DNA of 64,000 nucleotides. Source: Asanoa ishikariensis. Its GTDB lineage: Bacteria > Actinomycetota > Actinomycetes > Mycobacteriales > Micromonosporaceae. Position numbers and translations under genes: made by a program. The notes beneath the pieces are model-generated. The model saw only the letters and a list, made by a program, of their open reading frames with translations, searched no databases and was not told where the DNA came from. Within the stretch, counting starts at the first letter, position 1. Each line of letters opens with the position of its first letter. Location of the stretch: assembly GCF_900107455.1 (NCBI RefSeq), contig NZ_FNQB01000001.1, positions 2,232,001 through 2,296,000 of the forward strand. The letters are read 5' to 3'. Positions 2,402 to 14,180 of the stretch are shown here, in pieces.

Positions 2402-3256
2402 GTGCCCGACCCGCTGTCCGCCTTGATCGACCTGGTGGCCGAAGGTGGCGTCGCCGTGCTGAGCGGCGCCGGCCTGTCCACCGAATCCGGCATTCCCGAC
2501 TACCGCGGCCCGACCGGGTCAGCACGGAAGTTCGCGCCGATGACCTACCAGACCTTCACCCGCGACACGGCGGCCCGGCAGCGCTACTGGGCACGCAGCT
2601 ACGTCGGCTGGCAGGTGATCGGCCGGGCGGAGCCCAACGCCGGCCACCGCGCCGTCGCCGGGCTCCAGAGCGCCGGGCTGGTCTCGGCGGTGCTCACCCA
2701 GAACGTCGACGGCCTCCACCAGGCGGCCGGCGCCCGCGACGTGATCGAGCTGCACGGCAGCATCGACCGGGTCGTCTGCCTCGACTGCGGCCAGACCACC
2801 GGCCGGGCCGAGCTCGACGCGCGGCTGCGGGCGGCCAACCCGGCGTTCGCCGCGCTCGCCGCGGCCGTCAACCCGGACGGCGACGCCGACCTCGACGACG
2901 CCTCCGTCGACGCGTTCCGGCCCGTCGACTGCGCCCGCTGTCGGACCGGGGTGCTCAAGCCCGACGTGGTCTTCTTCGGCGAGACCGTGCCGGCCGCGCG
3001 GGTCGACCGCTGCTTCGCCTCGGTGGCCGGCGCCCGGCTGCTGCTCGTGCTCGGCTCGTCGTTGACGGTGATGTCCGGGCGCCGTTTCGTGCTGCGCGCG
3101 GCCAAGCTGGGCATCCCGGTCGCGATCGTCAACCAGGGACCGACCCGGGGCGACGCGTACGCGGCCGTCAAGGTCGATGCCCCGCTCGGCACCGCCCTCC
3201 CGGCGCTGGCTGACGCGCTGACCCTCGCTCAGTCCGGCAGGTCGAACGAGCCGTAG
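2402..3256 (+). CDS. Sir2-family NAD-dependent protein deacylase (sirtuin)
   Basis: A 284-residue cytoplasmic sirtuin that would remove acyl groups from protein lysines using NAD. The signatures appear in order: SGAGLSTESGIPDYRG (NAD-binding loop), TQNVDGLHQAAG, the catalytic His in ELHGSID, a zinc-binding module with CLDC and CARC, then VLGSSLTVMSG and IVNQGPT. The TESGIPDYR form resembles the SIRT4-like class. The start is the GTG at 2402, 14 bases after the VOC gene stop. The 3' end overlaps the convergent reductase-like gene by 28 bases. Confidence 0.9.
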   Translation: MPDPLSALIDLVAEGGVAVLSGAGLSTESGIPDYRGPTGSARKFAPMTYQTFTRDTAARQRYWARSYVGWQVIGRAEPNAGHRAVAGLQSAGLVSAVLTQNVDGLHQAAGARDVIELHGSIDRVVCLDCGQTTGRAELDARLRAANPAFAALAAAVNPDGDADLDDASVDAFRPVDCARCRTGVLKPDVVFFGETVPAARVDRCFASVAGARLLLVLGSSLTVMSGRRFVLRAAKLGIPVAIVNQGPTRGDAYAAVKVDAPLGTALPALADALTLAQSGRSNEP

Positions 3257-5407: not shown

Positions 5408-8400
5408 ACGGCCAGACCCAGTAGCCCGCGGTCAAGACCGATGACCAGGGTGCCGGCGGCGTACGCGCAGGACAGCGCGCGATGGTGCACCGGGATCGCG
5501 CGGACGCAGCGGCCGGTGACCGGATCCCAGAGCCGCACCGTCCGGTCCAGGCTGGTCGAGGCGACCAACTGCCGCCCGCCGGGCACCGGCAACGCGCAGA
5601 CCCCCGTCACCGCGGCCGTGTGCCCGGCCAGCACGTGGTGCGGGCGCCCGTCGGCCGGATGCCAGAGCCGGACCGTGCCGTCCGCGCCACCGGAGACCAG
5701 CAGGTCGCGGTCGTCGGCGGTGACCGTGCCGAGCGCGTCGACGGCGTCGGTGTGCGCGAGCTGCTGCCAGCGGGTGCCGCCGTCGAGGTCCCAGAGCCGG
5801 ACCGTGCCGTCCTTGTCGGCGGAGGCCAGCAGCTCGCGGCCGCCGAGCCGCACCGTGGTCAGCGCGGTCACCCAGCTTCGGTGGCCGAGTAGCACTCCGT
5901 AGGGCGATCCGTCGCGCGGGTTCCACAGCCGCACCGTGTCGTCGTCGGCGCCGGTCGCGACCAGCACCAGCCCGCCGGCGTTGACCGCGCAGATCGCGTT
6001 GACCCGCTCGTGGTGGTCGGCGAGCTCCGGACCGGCGCTGCCGTCGCGCAGGTCCCAGAGCCGCACCACGTGGTCGTCGCCGCCGGTGGCCAGCAGCGGC
6101 GCGTCGGCGTCGGGCACCGCGCAGACCGACGTGACCGCGCCCTCCCGGACCGGCAGGCGGGCCAGTGCGGCGCCGTTGGCCGGGTCCCAGATGCGCACGG
6201 TGCCGTCGGTGCCGGTGGACACCACCGCCGTGCCGCCGCGGAACGGCACCGCACGTACGGCGGCCACCGGACCCAGCCGGCCGCCGGCCAGCACCGACTC
6301 GGCCTGCCGGGTCACCGGGTCCCAGAGCCGGACCGTGCCGTCGTCGCCCGCGGTCGCGAGCAGGTCGCGGTCGCGGACCCGCAGTGTGCACACGGCGCGG
6401 ATCCAGCTCACGTCGCCGCGCAGGCTCGGCCGGGGCGTGCCGCTGCGGGCGTCCCAGAGGTGCAGCACGCCGCTCTCGTCCGTGGCGGTGAGCAGGACGG
6501 TGCCGTCGACCTCGACCGTGCACAGGTCCGTCAGCGGACCGGCCTGCGGGTCGATCGCGCTGAGCAGGTCGCCGGTCAGCGGGTTCCAGAGCCGCACCAC
6601 GCCGTCGTAACCGGCCGACGCCAACGCCACGCCGCCGCCGGCCCGCACCGCGCAGAGCGTGGTGGCCCAGCCGTCGTGCGCGACCACCGCGGTGGTGCAG
6701 GCGCCGGTCACCGGGTCCCAGAGTGCGATCACGCCGTCGAAGCCGGTCGCCGCGACGAGGCCGTGCGGCCCGACCGGCAGGTGGGTGACCGCCGTGGCCC
6801 AGCCGCCGAACCCGGTCAGCGAGTGCACGAGCGTGCCGTCGGCGGGGTTCCAGATCCGCACGGTGCGGTCGTCGCTCGCGGACGCCAGCAGCGTCGCCGC
6901 GCCGGGGACCGGCACCGCGCAGAGGTTGCGGACCCAGTCGGAATGACCGGTCAGGGTACGCAGGTGCGCGCCCGTGCCCGCGTGCCAGACGCCGATGGTG
7001 CCGTCGTGGCCGGCGGTGGCGAGCAGCGTGCCGTCCTCGACCTCGACCGCCCACACGCCGCGTACCCCGTCGGCATGCCCGGCCAGCACCCGCTCCACCC
7101 GGCCGGTCAGCGGGTCCCAGATCCGGACGGTGCCGTCCGCGCCGGCGGAGGCGAGGAAGTCGCGCCCGTCCATGGGCACGGCGCAGACGTCGTACACGGC
7201 GTCGGAATGTCCTTCTAGGACGGTCCGTTCGAGTCGCGGCGGGGTGTGCGCCCAGCGCGCCCGGTAGGCGGCGTCCTCCGTGACGGGCGCGCTGCCCAGC
7301 CGGTCGAGCCGGTCGACGACCGAGAACAGCGCCGCCCGCTCGGCCGGTGCGGCGTGCGCGGCCAGCGGCGTCCGGCGCAGCAACTGGACGCGGGCCAGCC
7401 CTTCGCGGGTGTCGGCCACCTCGGCGGCGGAGAGCAGACCGGCGAGATGGGCGTGCAGCACGTACGCGTCGTCGTTGAGCAAGGTGTCGACCAGGCCGGC
7501 CCGGTCGGCGTGCCGGGGCAGCATGCCGAGCAGGTAGTCGGGCGCCGAGGCCCAGCCGGCCGCGTGGCCGTGCCGGACCCAGGCGTAGAGCAGGTCGCGC
7601 TCGTCGTCGGCGCGGGCCGCCACCGTCGCGCGCGCGGCCAGCAGCGCGTCGTCGAGCGCCCGGTGCCGCAGCCGGTAGACGCCGGATGGCCCGTGTTCGC
7701 TGCTGCCGTGCTCGACCTGTCCGTGCTCGACCAGGGATGTGGTGGCCTGGGCGAAGGCGGCCAGGTCGTCGTCGGTGACGCGGCCGCCGAGCGCCTCGAT
7801 CGCGACCCGCCAGAGCCGCAGCGGCAGCCCGGGCGGCTCGGCGAAGGACAGCGCGGTCAGCGCCAGCCGGGCCGAGGTGGCGCCGGCGGGGGAGACGCCG
7901 CCCAGGTAGGCGTCGAGCGCCTCGGCGACGGACGCGGTGGACGCGACCCGGTGCGGGTCGACCGGCACGGCGTCGTTGCGGCCGTGCGCCCCGGCGACCA
8001 GGCCGGCGACGAGGAAGTTGCCGCCGGCCAGCGTGGCGATCCGGCGGGAGACCGGCTCGGCCCGCTCGGCGTCGGCGTACGGGTTGTCGGCGCGACCCTT
8101 GCTCTCCAGCCGCAGGGTGGCCATCGCGTGCGTGGCGAGGTCGGCCATGTTGACGTGCTCGGCCGAGTCGAGGTCGACCACGTCCGCGGCGGCCCCGAAC
8201 GCGCCCAGCAGGTCGCCCTGCTCGTCGGTCGGCCGGGTGCCGACGACGACCCGCACGCCGAGCAGGTCGCCCTGTTCCGCCAGCGGCACGAGCACCGTGC
8301 GGATGAGCTCCCGGGCCTGCGTGGGGGAGGCCGCCTCGTCGAGCGCGTCGATCACCAGGTTGAACCGGTCCGGCCGGGTGGCGAGCCGGTCGCGCAGGTG

Positions 8401-9348
8401 GGGCAGGAGGTCGCCGGGTACGGCGGGCAGCGCCGCCGACGCCGCGACGGCGATCTCGGTGGCCACCGCCAGGGCGTCCTTGCCGGCGGCGTGCACGGCG
8501 CAGGCGACGCTGCCCCGCGCGGCGGTGTCGCCGGGATCGAGCCGGGCCGCGGCGGCGTCGGCGGCGGTCACGATCCGGCCGAGCACGGCCGACTTGCCGA
8601 CCCCCGGAGCACCGGTGACCACCAGCAGGCGGCCGTCCGGACCGGGCCGGTCGAGCCAGTCGCCGACCACCCGCAGCACGGCGGCGCGGCCGCGGAACCC
8701 GTCTGTCCGGGTCCAGCCCCAGGCGGCGACGGCCTGTTCGCCGGCCGCGTCGAGCCGCCAGCCGGCCAGCGCGCCGAGCTTGAGGTCCGGCAGCGCGTCG
8801 CCGAGGCCGGTGGCGCGACCGTCACCACCGGCCGGACCCGCGGTGGCCGCCTGGACGACCAGCCCGACCACCGCCTGATAGTCGGGGGACCACAGCGGCG
8901 CGCCCGCGAACCCGGGCGCCAGACCGGTGCTGACGAGGCGGACCTGGCCGGTGTCGAACGGGTCGCCGACGGTGCCCTGTGCCGGGCGGCCGGCCGGGTC
9001 GTGGTCCGGGAAGCCGAACGACCACCACGGTCGGCCGGCGAGCTTGGCGAGCGGCGCGAGCCTTACCCGGGCGGGCCGCACCGGGTCGGGCACCGGGCCG
9101 TCGAGCGCGAGCAGGGCGAGGTCGGAGTCGCTGCCCTGGACCACCTGGCGGACCCGCGTGCGACCGAGCCCGGCCAGCGGAAAGCCGACCCAGAGCTCGT
9201 CGCGCGGCCGGCCACCGGACCGAACCAGTTGCGCGCAGGTGAGCACCCGGTCGGGCGCGACGACCACGCCGGCACCGATCGGCGTGGGGCTCTCCGCCGA
9301 CCCGTGGATCGCCACGACCCAGGGGAAGCTCGGCGGTGCGGCCCTCAT
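5404..9348 (-). CDS. Trypsin-like pseudo-protease / NACHT NTPase / 14-blade WD40 protein
   Basis: The 1314-residue protein has three parts. Residues 1-225 form a trypsin-fold domain, but the usual TCAHV is TCAQL (Gln40 at the His position) and the usual GxSGAP is GFAGAP (Ala148 at the Ser position); the Asp region (SDSDLALL) remains. Residues about 228-700 form a STAND/NACHT module with Walker A GAPGVGKS (246-253) and Walker B LVIDALDEA (331-339). From about 760 to the end come 14 WD40-type units (DGTVRIWDP and variants), the last one incomplete, enough for two seven-blade propellers. STAND proteins of this architecture sense a ligand through the propeller and oligomerise on NTP binding. The N-terminal effector looks catalytically dead, so it may act as an adaptor. 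Start ATG 9348 has GGGGAGGAG upstream. It is divergent from 9596. Confidence 0.9.
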   Translation of the reverse strand: MRAAPPSFPWVVAIHGSAESPTPIGAGVVVAPDRVLTCAQLVRSGGRPRDELWVGFPLAGLGRTRVRQVVQGSDSDLALLALDGPVPDPVRPARVRLAPLAKLAGRPWWSFGFPDHDPAGRPAQGTVGDPFDTGQVRLVSTGLAPGFAGAPLWSPDYQAVVGLVVQAATAGPAGGDGRATGLGDALPDLKLGALAGWRLDAAGEQAVAAWGWTRTDGFRGRAAVLRVVGDWLDRPGPDGRLLVVTGAPGVGKSAVLGRIVTAADAAAARLDPGDTAARGSVACAVHAAGKDALAVATEIAVAASAALPAVPGDLLPHLRDRLATRPDRFNLVIDALDEAASPTQARELIRTVLVPLAEQGDLLGVRVVVGTRPTDEQGDLLGAFGAAADVVDLDSAEHVNMADLATHAMATLRLESKGRADNPYADAERAEPVSRRIATLAGGNFLVAGLVAGAHGRNDAVPVDPHRVASTASVAEALDAYLGGVSPAGATSARLALTALSFAEPPGLPLRLWRVAIEALGGRVTDDDLAAFAQATTSLVEHGQVEHGSSEHGPSGVYRLRHRALDDALLAARATVAARADDERDLLYAWVRHGHAAGWASAPDYLLGMLPRHADRAGLVDTLLNDDAYVLHAHLAGLLSAAEVADTREGLARVQLLRRTPLAAHAAPAERAALFSVVDRLDRLGSAPVTEDAAYRARWAHTPPRLERTVLEGHSDAVYDVCAVPMDGRDFLASAGADGTVRIWDPLTGRVERVLAGHADGVRGVWAVEVEDGTLLATAGHDGTIGVWHAGTGAHLRTLTGHSDWVRNLCAVPVPGAATLLASASDDRTVRIWNPADGTLVHSLTGFGGWATAVTHLPVGPHGLVAATGFDGVIALWDPVTGACTTAVVAHDGWATTLCAVRAGGGVALASAGYDGVVRLWNPLTGDLLSAIDPQAGPLTDLCTVEVDGTVLLTATDESGVLHLWDARSGTPRPSLRGDVSWIRAVCTLRVRDRDLLATAGDDGTVRLWDPVTRQAESVLAGGRLGPVAAVRAVPFRGGTAVVSTGTDGTVRIWDPANGAALARLPVREGAVTSVCAVPDADAPLLATGGDDHVVRLWDLRDGSAGPELADHHERVNAICAVNAGGLVLVATGADDDTVRLWNPRDGSPYGVLLGHRSWVTALTTVRLGGRELLASADKDGTVRLWDLDGGTRWQQLAHTDAVDALGTVTADDRDLLVSGGADGTVRLWHPADGRPHHVLAGHTAAVTGVCALPVPGGRQLVASTSLDRTVRLWDPVTGRCVRAIPVHHRALSCAYAAGTLVIGLDRGLLGLAV

Positions 9349-9595
9349 CGCTCCTCCCCGTGCTAGCTCAGCTGACCGAATGGCTATCGTGCCCGGCCTG
9401 GCCGTTGCTAGGCAATATCGGCCCCTGCCGACTCGTCCGAACGGTTGCCGTGACCTTGCTTTTGGCCAGGGCTTATGGAGATCCACACCCGACAGTGATG
9501 TCGGATATCGGAAAACCCGGAGTGGACCTTGCTACCACGTTGGGTAGCTGGGGAGAATCGGCACGGTTCGCGCCCACCCTGACAGGAGCATCGGC
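9349..9595. promoter_or_regulatory. Divergent intergenic region of the conflict locus
   Basis: The 247 bases separate the NACHT/WD40 gene (minus) from the winged-helix gene (plus) and must hold promoters for both. No strong palindrome or textbook -35/-10 pair stood out. The coding starts on each side have clear ribosome sites only on the minus side (GGGGAGGAG). Confidence 0.4.
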
Positions 9596-10207
9596 ATGTC
9601 CGACGAGAAGCCGGTCACCTTCGCCATGCGCTGCATGCTGGTCATCCTGATGGCCGAAGCCCGCGAGCTGCCCAACGCGCGGATCGCCGACCGGGGTCTG
9701 GACCTGAAGAAGGAATACCGGGACCGCCTGGTCAGCCGGGGCTGGATCACGGTGCGCAAGGTCGGCCGGGGATACAGCCTCGAGCTCACGGAGGCCGGCT
9801 GGGCCGAGGCGATCGGGCAACTGTCCGCCGACCCGCCGGCGGGTGCCGGGGCCGGGGGTGCGGCACTTTATACCGTGCTCAATCGGCTGCGTGGTTTCCT
9901 CGACCGGTCCGACCTGGCGGCGTCCGAGCTCTTCGCCCCGGCCGAGAGCGACATCGACGTGCGCATCCGCAAGGCGTACGCGGAGATCGCCGTCAGCGCC
10001 GGTGAGCTGGTGTCGCTCGCGGCCCTCCGCCCACGTGTGACCGGCGCGGAGCGGGCCGGCGTCGACGCCGCCCTCGTCGCGCTGAGCACCGCTCCCGACG
10101 TGCGGATCGTCCCGGAGTCCAACCAGAAGACGCTCTCGGCGGAACAGCGCGACGCCGCCGTGCGGATCGGCAACCAGGACAGGCACTTGATCGCTATCGG
10201 TGTGTGA
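9596..10207 (+). CDS. Winged-helix protein of unknown function, partner of dual ATPase
   Basis: The 203-residue protein is not a family I can name. Residues about 8-75 look like a winged helix: helices MRCMLVILMAEA and IADRGLDLKKEYRDRLVSRG, then a wing WITVRKVGRGYSLELTEAG. The C-terminal part (about 90-203) is mainly helical and ends in a conserved-looking block PESNQKTLSAEQRDAAVRIG followed by NQDRHLIAIGV. It ends 43 bases before the dual-ATPase gene on the same strand, so the two are probably one operon. A plausible role is substrate or DNA adaptor, or regulator, for the ATPase; that is inference from position only. Confidence 0.75.
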   Translation: MSDEKPVTFAMRCMLVILMAEARELPNARIADRGLDLKKEYRDRLVSRGWITVRKVGRGYSLELTEAGWAEAIGQLSADPPAGAGAGGAALYTVLNRLRGFLDRSDLAASELFAPAESDIDVRIRKAYAEIAVSAGELVSLAALRPRVTGAERAGVDAALVALSTAPDVRIVPESNQKTLSAEQRDAAVRIGNQDRHLIAIGV

Positions 10208-10250
10208 GTGACGCGAGGCGGCTCGGTGCCTGAGGACGGGTAGGACAACG

Positions 10251-13200
10251 ATGGACGAGGTCGAGCGCCGGGCACTCAAGGCACTCCGGTTCAACTGGGC
10301 GCCGACGCCCGACGACGTGTGGCGGCAGCCGTCGTTCCACGTCGAGGGGCTGCACCGGGACGCCCTCCGGGTGATCCTCGACGGCGTCGAAGACGCCGAC
10401 CGCAGCGCCGACTCGAGCCCCGTCGGCGTCGCCGTGCTCGGCCAGCGCGGCAGCGGCAAGACCCATCTGCTCGGCTCGGTGCGCCAGCACGTACAGGCCG
10501 GTGGTGGCTATTTCTTCCTGGTCAGCCTGTTGGAGGCCAGCGCGTTCTGGCGCAGCACCGCACTGTCCATCCTGGACGGCCTCAACCGTGAGACGGCCGA
10601 GCGGGAGAGCCAGTTGCGGACCTTCCTGCGCCGGCTGGCCGACCTGATCGGCGCGCCGCGGGCGGTGCGGCGGGCGGTGACCGGCGAGGCCGAGCTGACC
10701 CGGCCGATCCTGGACGCGTTCGTCGACCTGCTGCGCAAGCACAACAGGCAGGTCGGCATCGACTGCCAGGACACGGCGCGGGCGATGGTGCTCCAGGCCG
10801 CCGACAAGCTCGGTGACCAGGACGTCGGCTACGAGTTCCTGTGCTCCAACGACGAGCTCGAGCCCGGTCAGCGGGCCGCGTGGGGGATGCGCCGGGCGCG
10901 GCGGTCCGCGCAGGAGATCGTCCGCGACATCTCGCGACTGCTGGCCCTGACCGGCCCGACCGTCATCGCGGTCGACCAGATCGACCTGCTGATCAACCAG
11001 GCGGCGAAGTCGCTCGACGGCGAGACCCGCCTGGAGTGGCGCGCCGCGCTGCTGCTGGAGCAGATCGCCGGCGGGCTGATGGCACTCCGCGAGACCACCC
11101 GCCGCACGCTGTCGGTCGTTGCCTGCCTCGACGAGTCGTGGTCGCTGGTCAAGACCCAGGCCACCGACACCGTCCAGGACCGGTTCCGGGAGGCGGTGCA
11201 GCTCCGTCAGATCGGCAGTGCCGAACTCGGCCGGGAGCTGATCGCCCGGCGCTTCGCGGAGCCGTTCAACGACCAGGGCTTCGTGCCGGCGTACGCCACC
11301 TGGCCCGTGCGGGCCTCCGCTTTCGTCGAGGCGGTCCAGTTCACGCCGCGCGAGCTGCTGCGCACGATCGACACCCACGTGCGGGGCTGCCTGCGCGACG
11401 AGACCGTGCGCGAGATGCTGCGCCTGGTGCACGACTCCGTGGCGGGTCCGGCGGTGGTCACAGAGGAACCGACCACCGACGACGAGTTGGCCGCTGTCGA
11501 CGCCCGGTTCGCGGCGCTGCTCGGGGCAGCGGACGCTTCGGCGGCGCTCGACCCGGCGACCGAGGACGTGGTCGTGCCCGAGTTGCTCGAGGCCGGCCTG
11601 ACCGCCTGGATCGGCTCGCGGGGTGGTGCGGGGGAGCTGTTCGGGCTCGACCCGCACCCGGGCAGCAAGCCGGCACTGCACGCGCGGCTGCGGCGCAGCC
11701 TCGACGAGCGCACCGAGGACGAGGAGCACTGGGCGTTCCGCGTCATCGGTGCCCGGCACCCGATCGCGGCGCTCAACAGGATCCGCAACGCCAGCACGGC
11801 CGCCGGCCTGACCGAGGGCGTAGCCAAGCGCAAGCTGTTCTTCCTCCGCAACGAGCCGTGGTCCGGCGGCGCGCGGACGACCGAGGTGATCGAGACGTTC
11901 AGCCGGGCCGGTGGGCGCACGCTGGCGTTCCCGGAGAGCGACGTGGTCGCCCTGGTCGCGCTGCGACAGCTTCTCCGCGAGCGCGGGTACGAGACGCTGC
12001 GGCCGTGGTTCGTCAGCCGCCAGCCGGCGGATCGGGTCGCGTTCCTGCGCGAGGCACTGGCGGGGGCGGACTCGGTCCCTCCTGCGGCGGCGGTTGATGC
12101 GCCGGTGCCGGTTGGTCCCGCCGGTCCGGAGCTGCCGGCGGCTCCGCCTGCGGCGGTCAGTCGGGCCAGGCAGGCGGGGCTGTCCGTGGTGGGCGGCTCG
12201 GCGATGGCAGGCGGTGCTGGGGCCGAGGGCGGCCCAGCGGTGCGCGCCGTCTCGGCGGTCCCGGATGCGTCGGGCGCGGCGGTCCCGAGCGAGCCCGCTG
12301 CCCCGGGTGGCCCTGCGGGGCAAAAGGGTGCGGCCGAGTCGGCTGGTCCGGCGGTGCGCGGTGGCTCGGCTTCGTCGGGCGGGCCGGCGGTTCCGGGTAG
12401 TTGGGCGGCTCGGGATGGTGCTGCCGCCGCGGGTGGTTCGGCGGTGCGCGATGGCGCGGCTTCGTCGGGCGGGCCGGCGGGTCCAGGTGGTTGGGCCGCT
12501 CGGGATGGTGCGGCCGCCTCGGGTGGTCCGGCGGTGCGCGATGGTGCGGCCGCGGCGGGTGGTCCGGCGGTGCGCGATGGCTCGGCTTCACCGGGTGGGC
12601 CTGTGGTTCCGGGTAGTTGGGCGGCGCGGGAAGGTGCGGCCGCGTCGGGTGGCTCGGTGCGCGACGCTTCGGCTTCGCCGGGTGGGCCGGCGGCTCCCGG
12701 CAGTTGGGCCGCGCGGGACGGTGCCGCCGCGTCCGGCGGCTCCGCGGTGCGCGACGGCTCAGTCTCGCCCGGTGGGCCGGCGGCCCCAAGCGGTTGGGCC
12801 GCGCGGGACGGCTCGGCAGTGCCTGGTGGCCGGGACGCTGCGACTCCGGCGGTCGGGCCCGTCAGCCCGGCTGCACCGACGCTCGCGACTGTCCGAAGGC
12901 TGCCGGTGCGCGTACCCCGCGATGATCGGGATCCTGGTTCGGTGATGCTCGGGCAGTCGGTTCAGGACGGCCGGTCGGTGTCGGTCGAGCTGGCGGCCCT
13001 GCGCCGGCATGCGGCGATCTTCGCCGGCTCCGGGTCGGGCAAGACCGTGCTGATCCGGCGGCTGGTCGAGGAGTGCGCGCTGCGTGGCGTGTCGTCGATC
13101 GTGCTGGACCCCAACAACGACCTCGCGCGGCTCGGTGACCCGTGGCCCCAGCCGCCGGCCGCCTGGGACGAGCTCGAGACGGCCCGGGCGGAGGCGTACC

Positions 13201-14180
13201 ACCGGAACACCGACGTCGTGGTCTGGACCCCGCGGCGGACCGCGGGTCGGCCGCTGAGCTTCCGGCCGCTGCCCGACTTCGCCGGCATCCTCGACGACCC
13301 GGACGCGTTCGCCGCCGGCGTCGACGCCGCCGTGGCGTCGCTCGCGCCGCGGGCCAACGTCGACGGCGCCTCCGCGAAGGCCCGCATCGGCAATGCGGTG
13401 TTGCGGGAGGCGCTGACCGCGTACGCCCGCGGTGGTGGAAGTGACCTTCGCGAGTTCGTCCTCTATCTCACCCGGTTGCCGGCCCGCGCCAGCCAGCTCG
13501 ACAACGCCCCGAAGGTCGCCAACGACATCGGCCAGCTCCTGCGCGCGACGATGGTCAGCGACCCGCTCTTCGGCGGTGACGGCGCGCCGCTCGACCCCGG
13601 TGAGCTGCTGCGCCCCGCGCCGGGCTTCCGTGCCCGGGTCTCGGTGATCAGCTTCATCGGCCTGCCCGACGACGGTCAGCGGCAGAGCTTCGTCAACCAG
13701 CTCCAGCTCGCGCTGTTCGCCTGGATCAAGCGCAACCCGGCCGGCGACCGCCCGCTCGGTGGCCTGTTCGTGATGGACGAGGCGCAGACCCTGGCCCCGT
13801 CCGGCGCGATGACCGCGTGCACGCAGAGCACGCTGGCGCTGGCGTCGCAGGCCCGCAAGTACGGGCTCGGGCTGGTGTTCGCGACGCAGGCGCCCAAGGG
13901 GCTGCACAACCGGATACCCGGCAACGCGGCGACGCAGCTGTTCGGCCTGCTCAACAGCCCGACCCAGATCGAGGCGGCGAAGGAGATGGCGCGGGCCAAG
14001 GGCAGCGACATCTCCGACGTGGCCCGGCTGCGCCCGGGCGTCTTCTACGCCGCCGTCGACGGTGCCGGCTTCGCCAAGCTGCGGGCGCCGCTGTGCCTGA
14101 GCCACCACCCGGCCAGCCCGCTCACCGTCGAAGAGGTCATCGCCCGCGCCCAGGACCCAGAAGAAGACGACGACGAATAA
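10251..14180 (+). CDS. Dual ATPase: AAA/STAND-like domain + repetitive linker + HerA/FtsK-type ATPase
   Basis: The 1309-residue protein contains two P-loop engines. The N-terminal one has Walker A GQRGSGKT (64-71) and a Walker-B-like strand TVIAVDQIDLLI (about 237-248). The C-terminal one has GSGSGKT (about 926), VLDPNNDLARLG, the Walker B LFVMDEAQTLAP (about 1170) and the sensor ATQAPKGL, which together mark the HerA/VirB4/FtsK family of DNA-pumping ATPases (DUF87-like). Residues about 610-880 are a Gly/Ala/Ser/Pro linker with tandem units (see repeat). The tail is acidic (EEDDDE). HerA ATPases act as hexameric DNA or RNA translocases, often with a nuclease; no nuclease is fused here and the upstream winged-helix gene is the only obvious partner. 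Confidence 0.85.
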   Translation: MDEVERRALKALRFNWAPTPDDVWRQPSFHVEGLHRDALRVILDGVEDADRSADSSPVGVAVLGQRGSGKTHLLGSVRQHVQAGGGYFFLVSLLEASAFWRSTALSILDGLNRETAERESQLRTFLRRLADLIGAPRAVRRAVTGEAELTRPILDAFVDLLRKHNRQVGIDCQDTARAMVLQAADKLGDQDVGYEFLCSNDELEPGQRAAWGMRRARRSAQEIVRDISRLLALTGPTVIAVDQIDLLINQAAKSLDGETRLEWRAALLLEQIAGGLMALRETTRRTLSVVACLDESWSLVKTQATDTVQDRFREAVQLRQIGSAELGRELIARRFAEPFNDQGFVPAYATWPVRASAFVEAVQFTPRELLRTIDTHVRGCLRDETVREMLRLVHDSVAGPAVVTEEPTTDDELAAVDARFAALLGAADASAALDPATEDVVVPELLEAGLTAWIGSRGGAGELFGLDPHPGSKPALHARLRRSLDERTEDEEHWAFRVIGARHPIAALNRIRNASTAAGLTEGVAKRKLFFLRNEPWSGGARTTEVIETFSRAGGRTLAFPESDVVALVALRQLLRERGYETLRPWFVSRQPADRVAFLREALAGADSVPPAAAVDAPVPVGPAGPELPAAPPAAVSRARQAGLSVVGGSAMAGGAGAEGGPAVRAVSAVPDASGAAVPSEPAAPGGPAGQKGAAESAGPAVRGGSASSGGPAVPGSWAARDGAAAAGGSAVRDGAASSGGPAGPGGWAARDGAAASGGPAVRDGAAAAGGPAVRDGSASPGGPVVPGSWAAREGAAASGGSVRDASASPGGPAAPGSWAARDGAAASGGSAVRDGSVSPGGPAAPSGWAARDGSAVPGGRDAATPAVGPVSPAAPTLATVRRLPVRVPRDDRDPGSVMLGQSVQDGRSVSVELAALRRHAAIFAGSGSGKTVLIRRLVEECALRGVSSIVLDPNNDLARLGDPWPQPPAAWDELETARAEAYHRNTDVVVWTPRRTAGRPLSFRPLPDFAGILDDPDAFAAGVDAAVASLAPRANVDGASAKARIGNAVLREALTAYARGGGSDLREFVLYLTRLPARASQLDNAPKVANDIGQLLRATMVSDPLFGGDGAPLDPGELLRPAPGFRARVSVISFIGLPDDGQRQSFVNQLQLALFAWIKRNPAGDRPLGGLFVMDEAQTLAPSGAMTACTQSTLALASQARKYGLGLVFATQAPKGLHNRIPGNAATQLFGLLNSPTQIEAAKEMARAKGSDISDVARLRPGVFYAAVDGAGFAKLRAPLCLSHHPASPLTVEEVIARAQDPEEDDDE
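12350..12850 (+). repeat. Tandem coding repeats in the dual-ATPase linker
   Basis: Within the ATPase gene a unit of roughly 30 codons recurs about five times with small changes. In protein form it alternates GSWAARDGAAASGG and PAVRDGSASPGGPA. At the DNA level, GCGGTGCGCGATGG and GGTGGTCCGGCGG recur. The units stay in frame, so gain or loss would lengthen or shorten the spacer between the two ATPase domains without breaking the gene. Confidence 0.75.

Follow-up and report, generated by a model that had tools for sequence, protein, structure and literature searches.

In SIR2-HerA and other two-gene HerA defense systems, a HerA-type motor partners an effector gene. A counter-invader class, the "HerA/FtsK capture systems" (Rakesh, Aravind, Krishnan 2024, PMC10853773), is described in the main text of that paper as combining a HerA/FtsK ATPase with an Orc/CDC6 AAA+ ATPase, an inactive REase, an active REase, and a wHTH "in single or multiple polypeptides," and the capture model proposed there is the one adopted here. 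The locus that we analyzed lies in a 64,000-nucleotide stretch of DNA (the window, whose positions are used unless another locus is named) from Asanoa ishikariensis, the genome of which comprises 9.09 Mb in 11 contigs. It carries a HerA/FtsK ATPase and a wHTH component, and no active REase was found; because the nuclease is missing, the locus was judged to resemble such systems in its probable mode of action but was not filed as a full capture-system member. The initial annotation had called it a candidate undescribed system. This does not hold for the general class, published in 2024 according to the main text of PMC10853773, but three features are apparently new.

Gene layout at the Asanoa locus

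The upstream gene of the pair, P0001 (9596–10207, forward strand, ATG start), was delineated from its ORF, Pfam, a predicted model, and the family alignment, and encodes a double winged-helix adaptor of 203 residues. Only one Pfam model, the wHTH family DUF6293_C, matches P0001, and its score of 22.7 bits is below the cut-off of 27. The predicted model (mean pLDDT 92.7) shows a wHTH-like order of elements at about residues 9 to 64 and again at about residues 119 to 201, consistent with two winged-helix domains linked by a helix. The first domain is placed at about residues 1 to 75 by the model and the family alignment (within 9596–10207, forward strand), and the second occupies the C-terminal block, about residues 115 to 203 (9938–10204, forward strand), according to the model and a domain profile. 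MarR/ArsR-type proteins were the best fold matches of the model, albeit weak ones (best E 0.0076; none below 0.001). The winged-helix assignment made in the initial annotation is thus supported by the model, with the Pfam match sub-threshold. The C-terminal block that had been called unfamiliar is predicted to be a second wHTH, although it belongs to no named family in the profile libraries used. An NCBIfam search gave nothing over the cut-off.

Forty-three bases downstream is P0002 (10251–14180, forward strand, ATG start), a motor of 1309 residues for which the ORF, Pfam, PADLOC, and models indicate the order AAA, REase-like region, linker, and HerA. Pfam matches AAA_22/AAA_16 at around residues 50 to 250 and DUF87 (HerA) at residues 900 to 995 (E 2.2e-10), and the motor domain matches PADLOC mad8 (2.8e-19) and HerA models. 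Motifs read off the forward-strand sequence comprise an AAA-domain Walker A, GQRGSGKT (10440–10463), whose key residues are invariant in the family alignment, a HerA-domain Walker A, GSGSGKT (13026–13046), likewise invariant, and a HerA-domain Walker B, LFVMDEAQ (13764–13787), in which the D and E are invariant. A full-length homologue from A. iriomotensis (L075, 1076 residues) was modeled as a stand-in for the 1309-residue window protein, and its best structure matches are HerA and TrwB, with further matches to anti-phage HerA structures. Pfam, the Walker motifs, and the homologue model therefore agree with the earlier proposal that an AAA-type ATPase and a HerA/FtsK-type translocase reside in one protein. 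Identification as a conjugation coupling protein was rejected because the TrwB matches reflect a common ATPase fold.

The AAA domain can be placed only tentatively in the Orc/CDC6 class: of 49 family members compared at E ≤ 0.01, 45 match AAA_16 and 2 match an ORC-CDC6-like model, and the best E for the AAA half in a PDB profile search was only 0.0037. The REase-like region after the AAA domain (approximately 11568–11930, forward strand, by homology mapping from the L075 model) has a predicted alpha-beta-beta-beta-alpha-beta order and lacks a recognizable catalytic motif. It gave no match in a PDB profile search, and a wHTH following the REase was not identified in the L075 model. The Ala/Gly/Pro/Ser-rich linker (12096–12920, forward strand), defined from sequence and dN/dS, is the fastest-changing part of the motor in the dN/dS comparison and consists in part of tandem repeats of 90 to 126 bp (12327–12811).

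Divergent from the pair is P0003 (5404–9348, reverse strand), separated from it by a 247-bp intergenic region (9349–9595) in which a profile search found no Trypco1 gene. Its length of 1314 residues assumes a start at 9348; the mechanical ORF extends to 9486. Profiles and alignment divide P0003 into trypsin-like, NACHT/STAND, and WD40 portions, and both Trypsin_2 (PF13365, E 1.9e-11, 8860–9276) and NACHT (PF05729, E 8.1e-6, 8221–8631) exceed their cut-offs. The neighbor first annotated as a STAND sensor of the NACHT/WD40 kind also has an N-terminal trypsin-like domain that had been missed. By alignment and profile this domain (8734–9348, reverse strand) is catalytically dead: the catalytic His is Gln and the catalytic Ser is Ala, and thus the His-Asp-Ser set that characterizes trypsin-type STAND proteins is not intact, although the fold still matches Trypsin_2. 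A profile of 11 trypsin parts recovered serine proteases from the PDB (best 1.4e-4), and single-sequence PDB searches with the trypsin and NACHT parts gave no useful match.

Lengths, strands, coordinates, the 43-base gap, and the divergence from the STAND gene all agree with the initial annotation. Its statement that a nuclease, Sir2, or DUF4297 partner is lacking is correct for adjoining genes, since the annotated window neighbors of P0002 are P0001 and Sod, with neither a Sir2 nor a DUF4297 gene adjacent, but the window does contain, at a distance of some 6 kb from the wHTH gene, a Sir2-family gene (2402–3256, forward strand; PF02146, E 1.2e-39). Because a cluster comparable in length and placement (cluster 19) lies upstream in all six Asanoa loci, this gene probably reflects Asanoa synteny and is not a partner. 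The annotated immediate flanks of the pair are metabolic and transport genes, and the 13 flanking proteins tried revealed no defense island, which we counted against a defense role. With no nuclease, no Trypco1, and no protease catalytic residues, the window locus has no active effector recognizable by profiles or alignment.

Linkage of the pair and exchange of the third gene

We gathered 32 stretches from relatives, 80 named loci (the best 80 of 233 matches), and three loci from a plasmid collection, and with the window included, 116 sequences of at least 6.5 kb were gene-called with our own script. Five sequences that yielded no complete motor gene (L080, L081, L053, L063, and L066) and six duplicates (L042, L045, L049, L052, L072, and L073) were dropped, leaving 105 loci, a set that leans to near relatives. 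Shorter loci and L154 to L179 are outside this set.

At every one of the 105 loci, a member of the P0001 family precedes the motor gene on the same strand, which answers in the affirmative whether the wHTH gene stays linked to homologues of the ATPase. The two genes were called as neighbors at 101 of the 105 loci; among these 101, the gap does not exceed 50 bp in 91, and the genes overlap by exactly 4 bases (−4) in 59. The pair survives in a Methylobacterium plasmid locus (L011). Its presence is patchy: strong matches (>300 bits) occur in 21 of 41 relatives, and in a phylum sample the pair was found in 4 of 296 genomes at E ≤ 1e-30, with six candidates scored per genome. The wHTH and AAA-HerA genes are a conserved unit, the core of the system, and chance ORFs were rejected on the basis of conservation and dN/dS. 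Elsewhere in the window genome, on a different contig, lies a further copy that has DUF559 as its partner (L060), and two copies with different partners also share a genome in the cases of L056 and L044 and of L067 and L068. In Tsukamurella tyrosinosolvens "plasmid 22" (L010, 10293–15261), a DUF559-wHTH-motor set is located amid ribosomal-protein genes, between rplN and rpsQ together with other genes.

The designation as a two-gene system proved too small, because at most loci the pair is accompanied by a third gene that can be exchanged. As counted with profiles built on these loci themselves, a DUF559 protein precedes the wHTH gene at 63 of 105 loci, a divergent NACHT gene is present at 24 (with a Trypco1 gene in between in 17 of these), and an AIPR/AbiU-like protein lies downstream at 9. 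Another 9 loci have none of the three, among them L120, with an Mrr-type gene downstream (PF04471), and L061, with just 972 bases of upstream sequence. No locus among the 105 has two of the three partner types. Pfam was applied to five DUF559, two AIPR, and one Trypco1 proteins, and the respective models exceeded their cut-offs in all five (PF04480) and in both (PF10592), with PF19493 found in the one Trypco1 protein; one AIPR-type protein compared with PADLOC AbiU matched at 8e-112. The D/E/H columns are invariant among 39 aligned DUF559 partners. In this family a nuclease partner is the norm; the window locus lacks one. At four AIPR-type loci (L096, L116, L126, and L130), three conserved genes lie directly upstream of the wHTH gene, and at L096, the sole locus of the four that was profiled, this trio matches a pPIWI_RE three-gene island.

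On the HerA tree, loci of the NACHT type form a clade of 23 (SH-aLRT 100) plus the distant L067, a pattern of two changes, or perhaps of a single origin. Because the NACHT type appears to have arisen once or twice, the mutual exclusivity of partners does not represent many independent events, and a history of many independent partner swaps was ruled out. The exchange of a nuclease for a protease/STAND sensor in one branch is, as far as these sequences indicate, apparently new. Linkage of the NACHT/WD40 gene to the pair, the other association suggested at the outset, is thus a property of this branch (the 23-member clade plus L067), but a similar gene exists without the pair in L154. There, at about 8781–11290, a Trypco1 gene is followed by a trypsin/NACHT protein with an intact triad, and no HerA pair lies within 19 kb. 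Within the NACHT type, whole motor length ranges from about 1030 to 1490 residues.

Alignment of the 24 NACHT proteins revealed that the 17 with an adjacent Trypco1 gene all retain the His-Asp-Ser triad, and that the seven without Trypco1 are also without the triad (the window, L074, L075, L043, L044, L046, and L077). L077 is from Paractinoplanes lichenicola and the other six are Asanoa loci, in one of which (L046) no trypsin part was found. With three more Trypco1 loci whose triads are intact (L154–L156), Trypco1 and the triad are retained jointly in 20 of 20 cases and lost jointly in 7 of 7. No Trypco1 remnants were scored in the intergenic gaps of six of the seven loci, and at L044, where the wHTH gene was uncalled, a six-frame search with the Trypco1 profile was negative. 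On the HerA tree L077 is surrounded by relatives with an intact triad, which makes two losses the simplest reading, and the joint loss apparently represents two events.

In comparison with A. hainanensis, which has the nearest motor gene on the tree, dN/dS is 0.17 for the wHTH gene, 0.13 for the AAA half, and 0.11 for the HerA part, and values between the window and four Asanoa loci are 0.10 to 0.37 for all domains except the linker. These values indicate that purifying selection acts on the window lineage. The dead trypsin-like domain has dN/dS values of 0.22 to 0.36 against the same four loci and therefore seems to be retained as a protein rather than as an enzyme. The neighborhood of trypsin-like peptidases and Trypco1 is already known, as the excerpted text of PMC7159879 documents. 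The joint loss of Trypco1 and the protease catalytic residues in Asanoa, with selection persisting, is apparently new and would tie the uncharacterized Trypco1 family to trypsin function.

The second wHTH domain in phage ORFs

Some P0001 matches lie away from any motor gene, and all four that were retrieved (L162–L165) contain the C-terminal domain only. In the putative prophage L163 the domain occurs twice in an ORF adjoining a head-protease/major-head gene, and in the putative prophage L165 the ORF looks portal-containing by reading alone. In viral contigs, all 10 confirmed relatives match only residues 116 to 202. A profile of the C-terminal domain matched all 14 viral-contig and prophage loci, with 21 copies and up to four per ORF, and a profile of the N-terminal wHTH matched 0 of the same 14. 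PHROGs comparisons, which covered 5 of the 10 viral contigs and one prophage, placed portal, terminase, or major-head proteins adjoining the domain or in the same ORF in L166, L167, L168, L169, and L172. Named phage records searched with the shared domain and the prophage ORF gave no match. The second wHTH of the adaptor thus apparently turns up, unaccompanied by the first, in ORFs of viral contigs, several of them by portal or terminase genes, which seems to be new here. Its presence in both the adaptor and portal-adjacent phage ORFs makes the domain a candidate for phage sensing, or for phage blocking of the system.

A tree of the shared-domain copies is weak and does not cleanly separate adaptor and phage copies, and therefore no direction of transfer can be read from it. 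A phage-borne form of the whole pair was rejected: the four HerA matches are distant (27–29% identity), with none close. Small viral-contig proteins of 93 to 151 residues consist of little beyond the shared wHTH (L173, 5502–5783; L174, 587–1042; L175, 3035–3490), and these are possible decoys or inhibitors.

A capture model and its relation to described systems

We tentatively favor a reading, one that may well be wrong, in which the wHTH and AAA-HerA proteins form the constant core of a system that captures the DNA of invaders, probably phages, and in which the third gene provides an output that can be swapped. This reading draws on the linkage and short gaps, the partner exchange, the mad8/HerA matches, the pPIWI_RE neighbors, the wHTH shared with phage, the purifying selection, and the model in the main text of PMC10853773. 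Counted against it are the lack of a nuclease, Trypco1, and protease catalysis at the window locus, the few NACHT origins, L154, the non-defense flanks, the scarcity of ORC-CDC6-like matches (2 of 49), and the lack of a named-phage match. We infer a defense role, a DNA substrate, an order of events, and the entire window-specific mechanism as follows. The double-wHTH protein would serve as a targeting adaptor whose first wHTH binds DNA and whose second engages DNA or a phage packaging/ejection protein, where the same domain occurs. Powered by ATP, the N-terminal AAA domain with its REase-like module would act as a switch or as a loader, and the flexibly linked HerA ring would grip the DNA of the invader and pump it. 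At loci of the common form, a nuclease of the DUF559 or AIPR/AbiU type would then receive the DNA. In the branch of the window, the nuclease gene would have been replaced by the divergent NACHT/WD40 sensor with its trypsin-like domain. In Asanoa, the protease-dead STAND protein may be a sensor or scaffold gating the motor, whose grip on DNA would be the interference step; of all steps in the model, this gating of a motor that has no nuclease is the one held with the least confidence. Unlikely, by our estimate, is an extended version in which the second wHTH is a phage head-module domain through which the invader is recognized at packaging/ejection by sharing or decoy, the nuclease has been swapped for an NLR-like STAND protein, and the Asanoa sensor acts independently of protease activity, with motor capture as the immune act.

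The divergent rather than co-directional orientation of P0003 would also suit two separate modules, a HerA capture pair that no longer has its nuclease and, next to it by coincidence, a trypsin/NACHT/WD40 conflict protein that functions on its own. The occurrence of Trypco1-NACHT without the pair in L154 (the L155 sequence is too short to tell) and the few switch events on the HerA tree point the same way. However, the same arrangement recurs at 24 of 105 loci in many Micromonosporaceae genera, never with DUF559 or AIPR, and 10 of the 11 relatives with a strong NACHT-protein match have the NACHT gene at the pair, L154 being the exception, and we consider separate modules somewhat less likely than a single system.

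A role in chromosome maintenance or DNA transfer (repair, segregation, or conjugation coupling) instead of defense might be suggested by the best fold matches, which include repair HerA and conjugative TrwB, and by the upstream neighbors kept between Asanoa species (clusters 8, 19, and 20). We regard this role as improbable given the patchy presence across relatives, the replacement of one kind of partner by another (nuclease, AbiU-like, or STAND), and the genomes in which two copies differ in their partners (L060 and the window, L056 and L044, L067 and L068). Similarly, the Asanoa locus has no active partner and its linker is repeat-expanded and fast-changing, as might be expected of a decaying, functionless remnant, but its frames are open, both sets of ATPase motifs are retained, and the low dN/dS values extend to the dead protease domain, so that decay is very unlikely. 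The capture reading is the one carried into the comparison below.

Assignment to SIR2-HerA, DUF4297, or BRC systems was rejected because the partners are missing. The motor here is fused to AAA and has a wHTH adaptor with no adjacent Sir2/DUF4297, unlike SIR2-HerA-type systems. From MADS, mad8 is the sole profile that matches window proteins, and it is the motor that resembles it. BREX-Related Capture likewise has a HerA translocase with AAA+ and wHTH components, but the excerpts of PMC12839542 define it by PglZ, DUF6079, DUF4007, and others, none of which was recognized in the families profiled here; Pfam and PADLOC matches of the pair and the neighbors tested include no PglZ nuclease. The Trypsin/STAND and Trypco1 conflict systems share the trypsin-like domain, the NTPase, and the Trypco1 neighbor, but in the excerpts of PMC7159879 and PMC10907252 they are described with vWA-MoxR-VMAP and others, not as the partner of a HerA pair. 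The nuclease-protease pairs of PMC12799240 resemble P0003 in that proteases are fused to STAND-type sensors and swapped among immune systems. According to the excerpts of that paper, an MBL nuclease accompanies the trypsin, whereas here the nuclease and the trypsin/NACHT gene are mutually exclusive. The HerA/FtsK capture systems are alike in joining HerA/FtsK with AAA+, an REase-like module, a wHTH, and a nuclease partner, as the main text of PMC10853773 presents them; DUF559, AIPR, AbiU, WD40, and trypsin are absent from that main text, its supplements lying outside the comparison. Relative to that main text, the family analyzed here differs in having a branch that lacks the nuclease and is partnered by a trypsin/NACHT/WD40 protein, and in a wHTH domain common to phage, and it supplies concrete genes for testing a HerA class proposed from comparative genomics, with one motor core and interchangeable nuclease or STAND partners.
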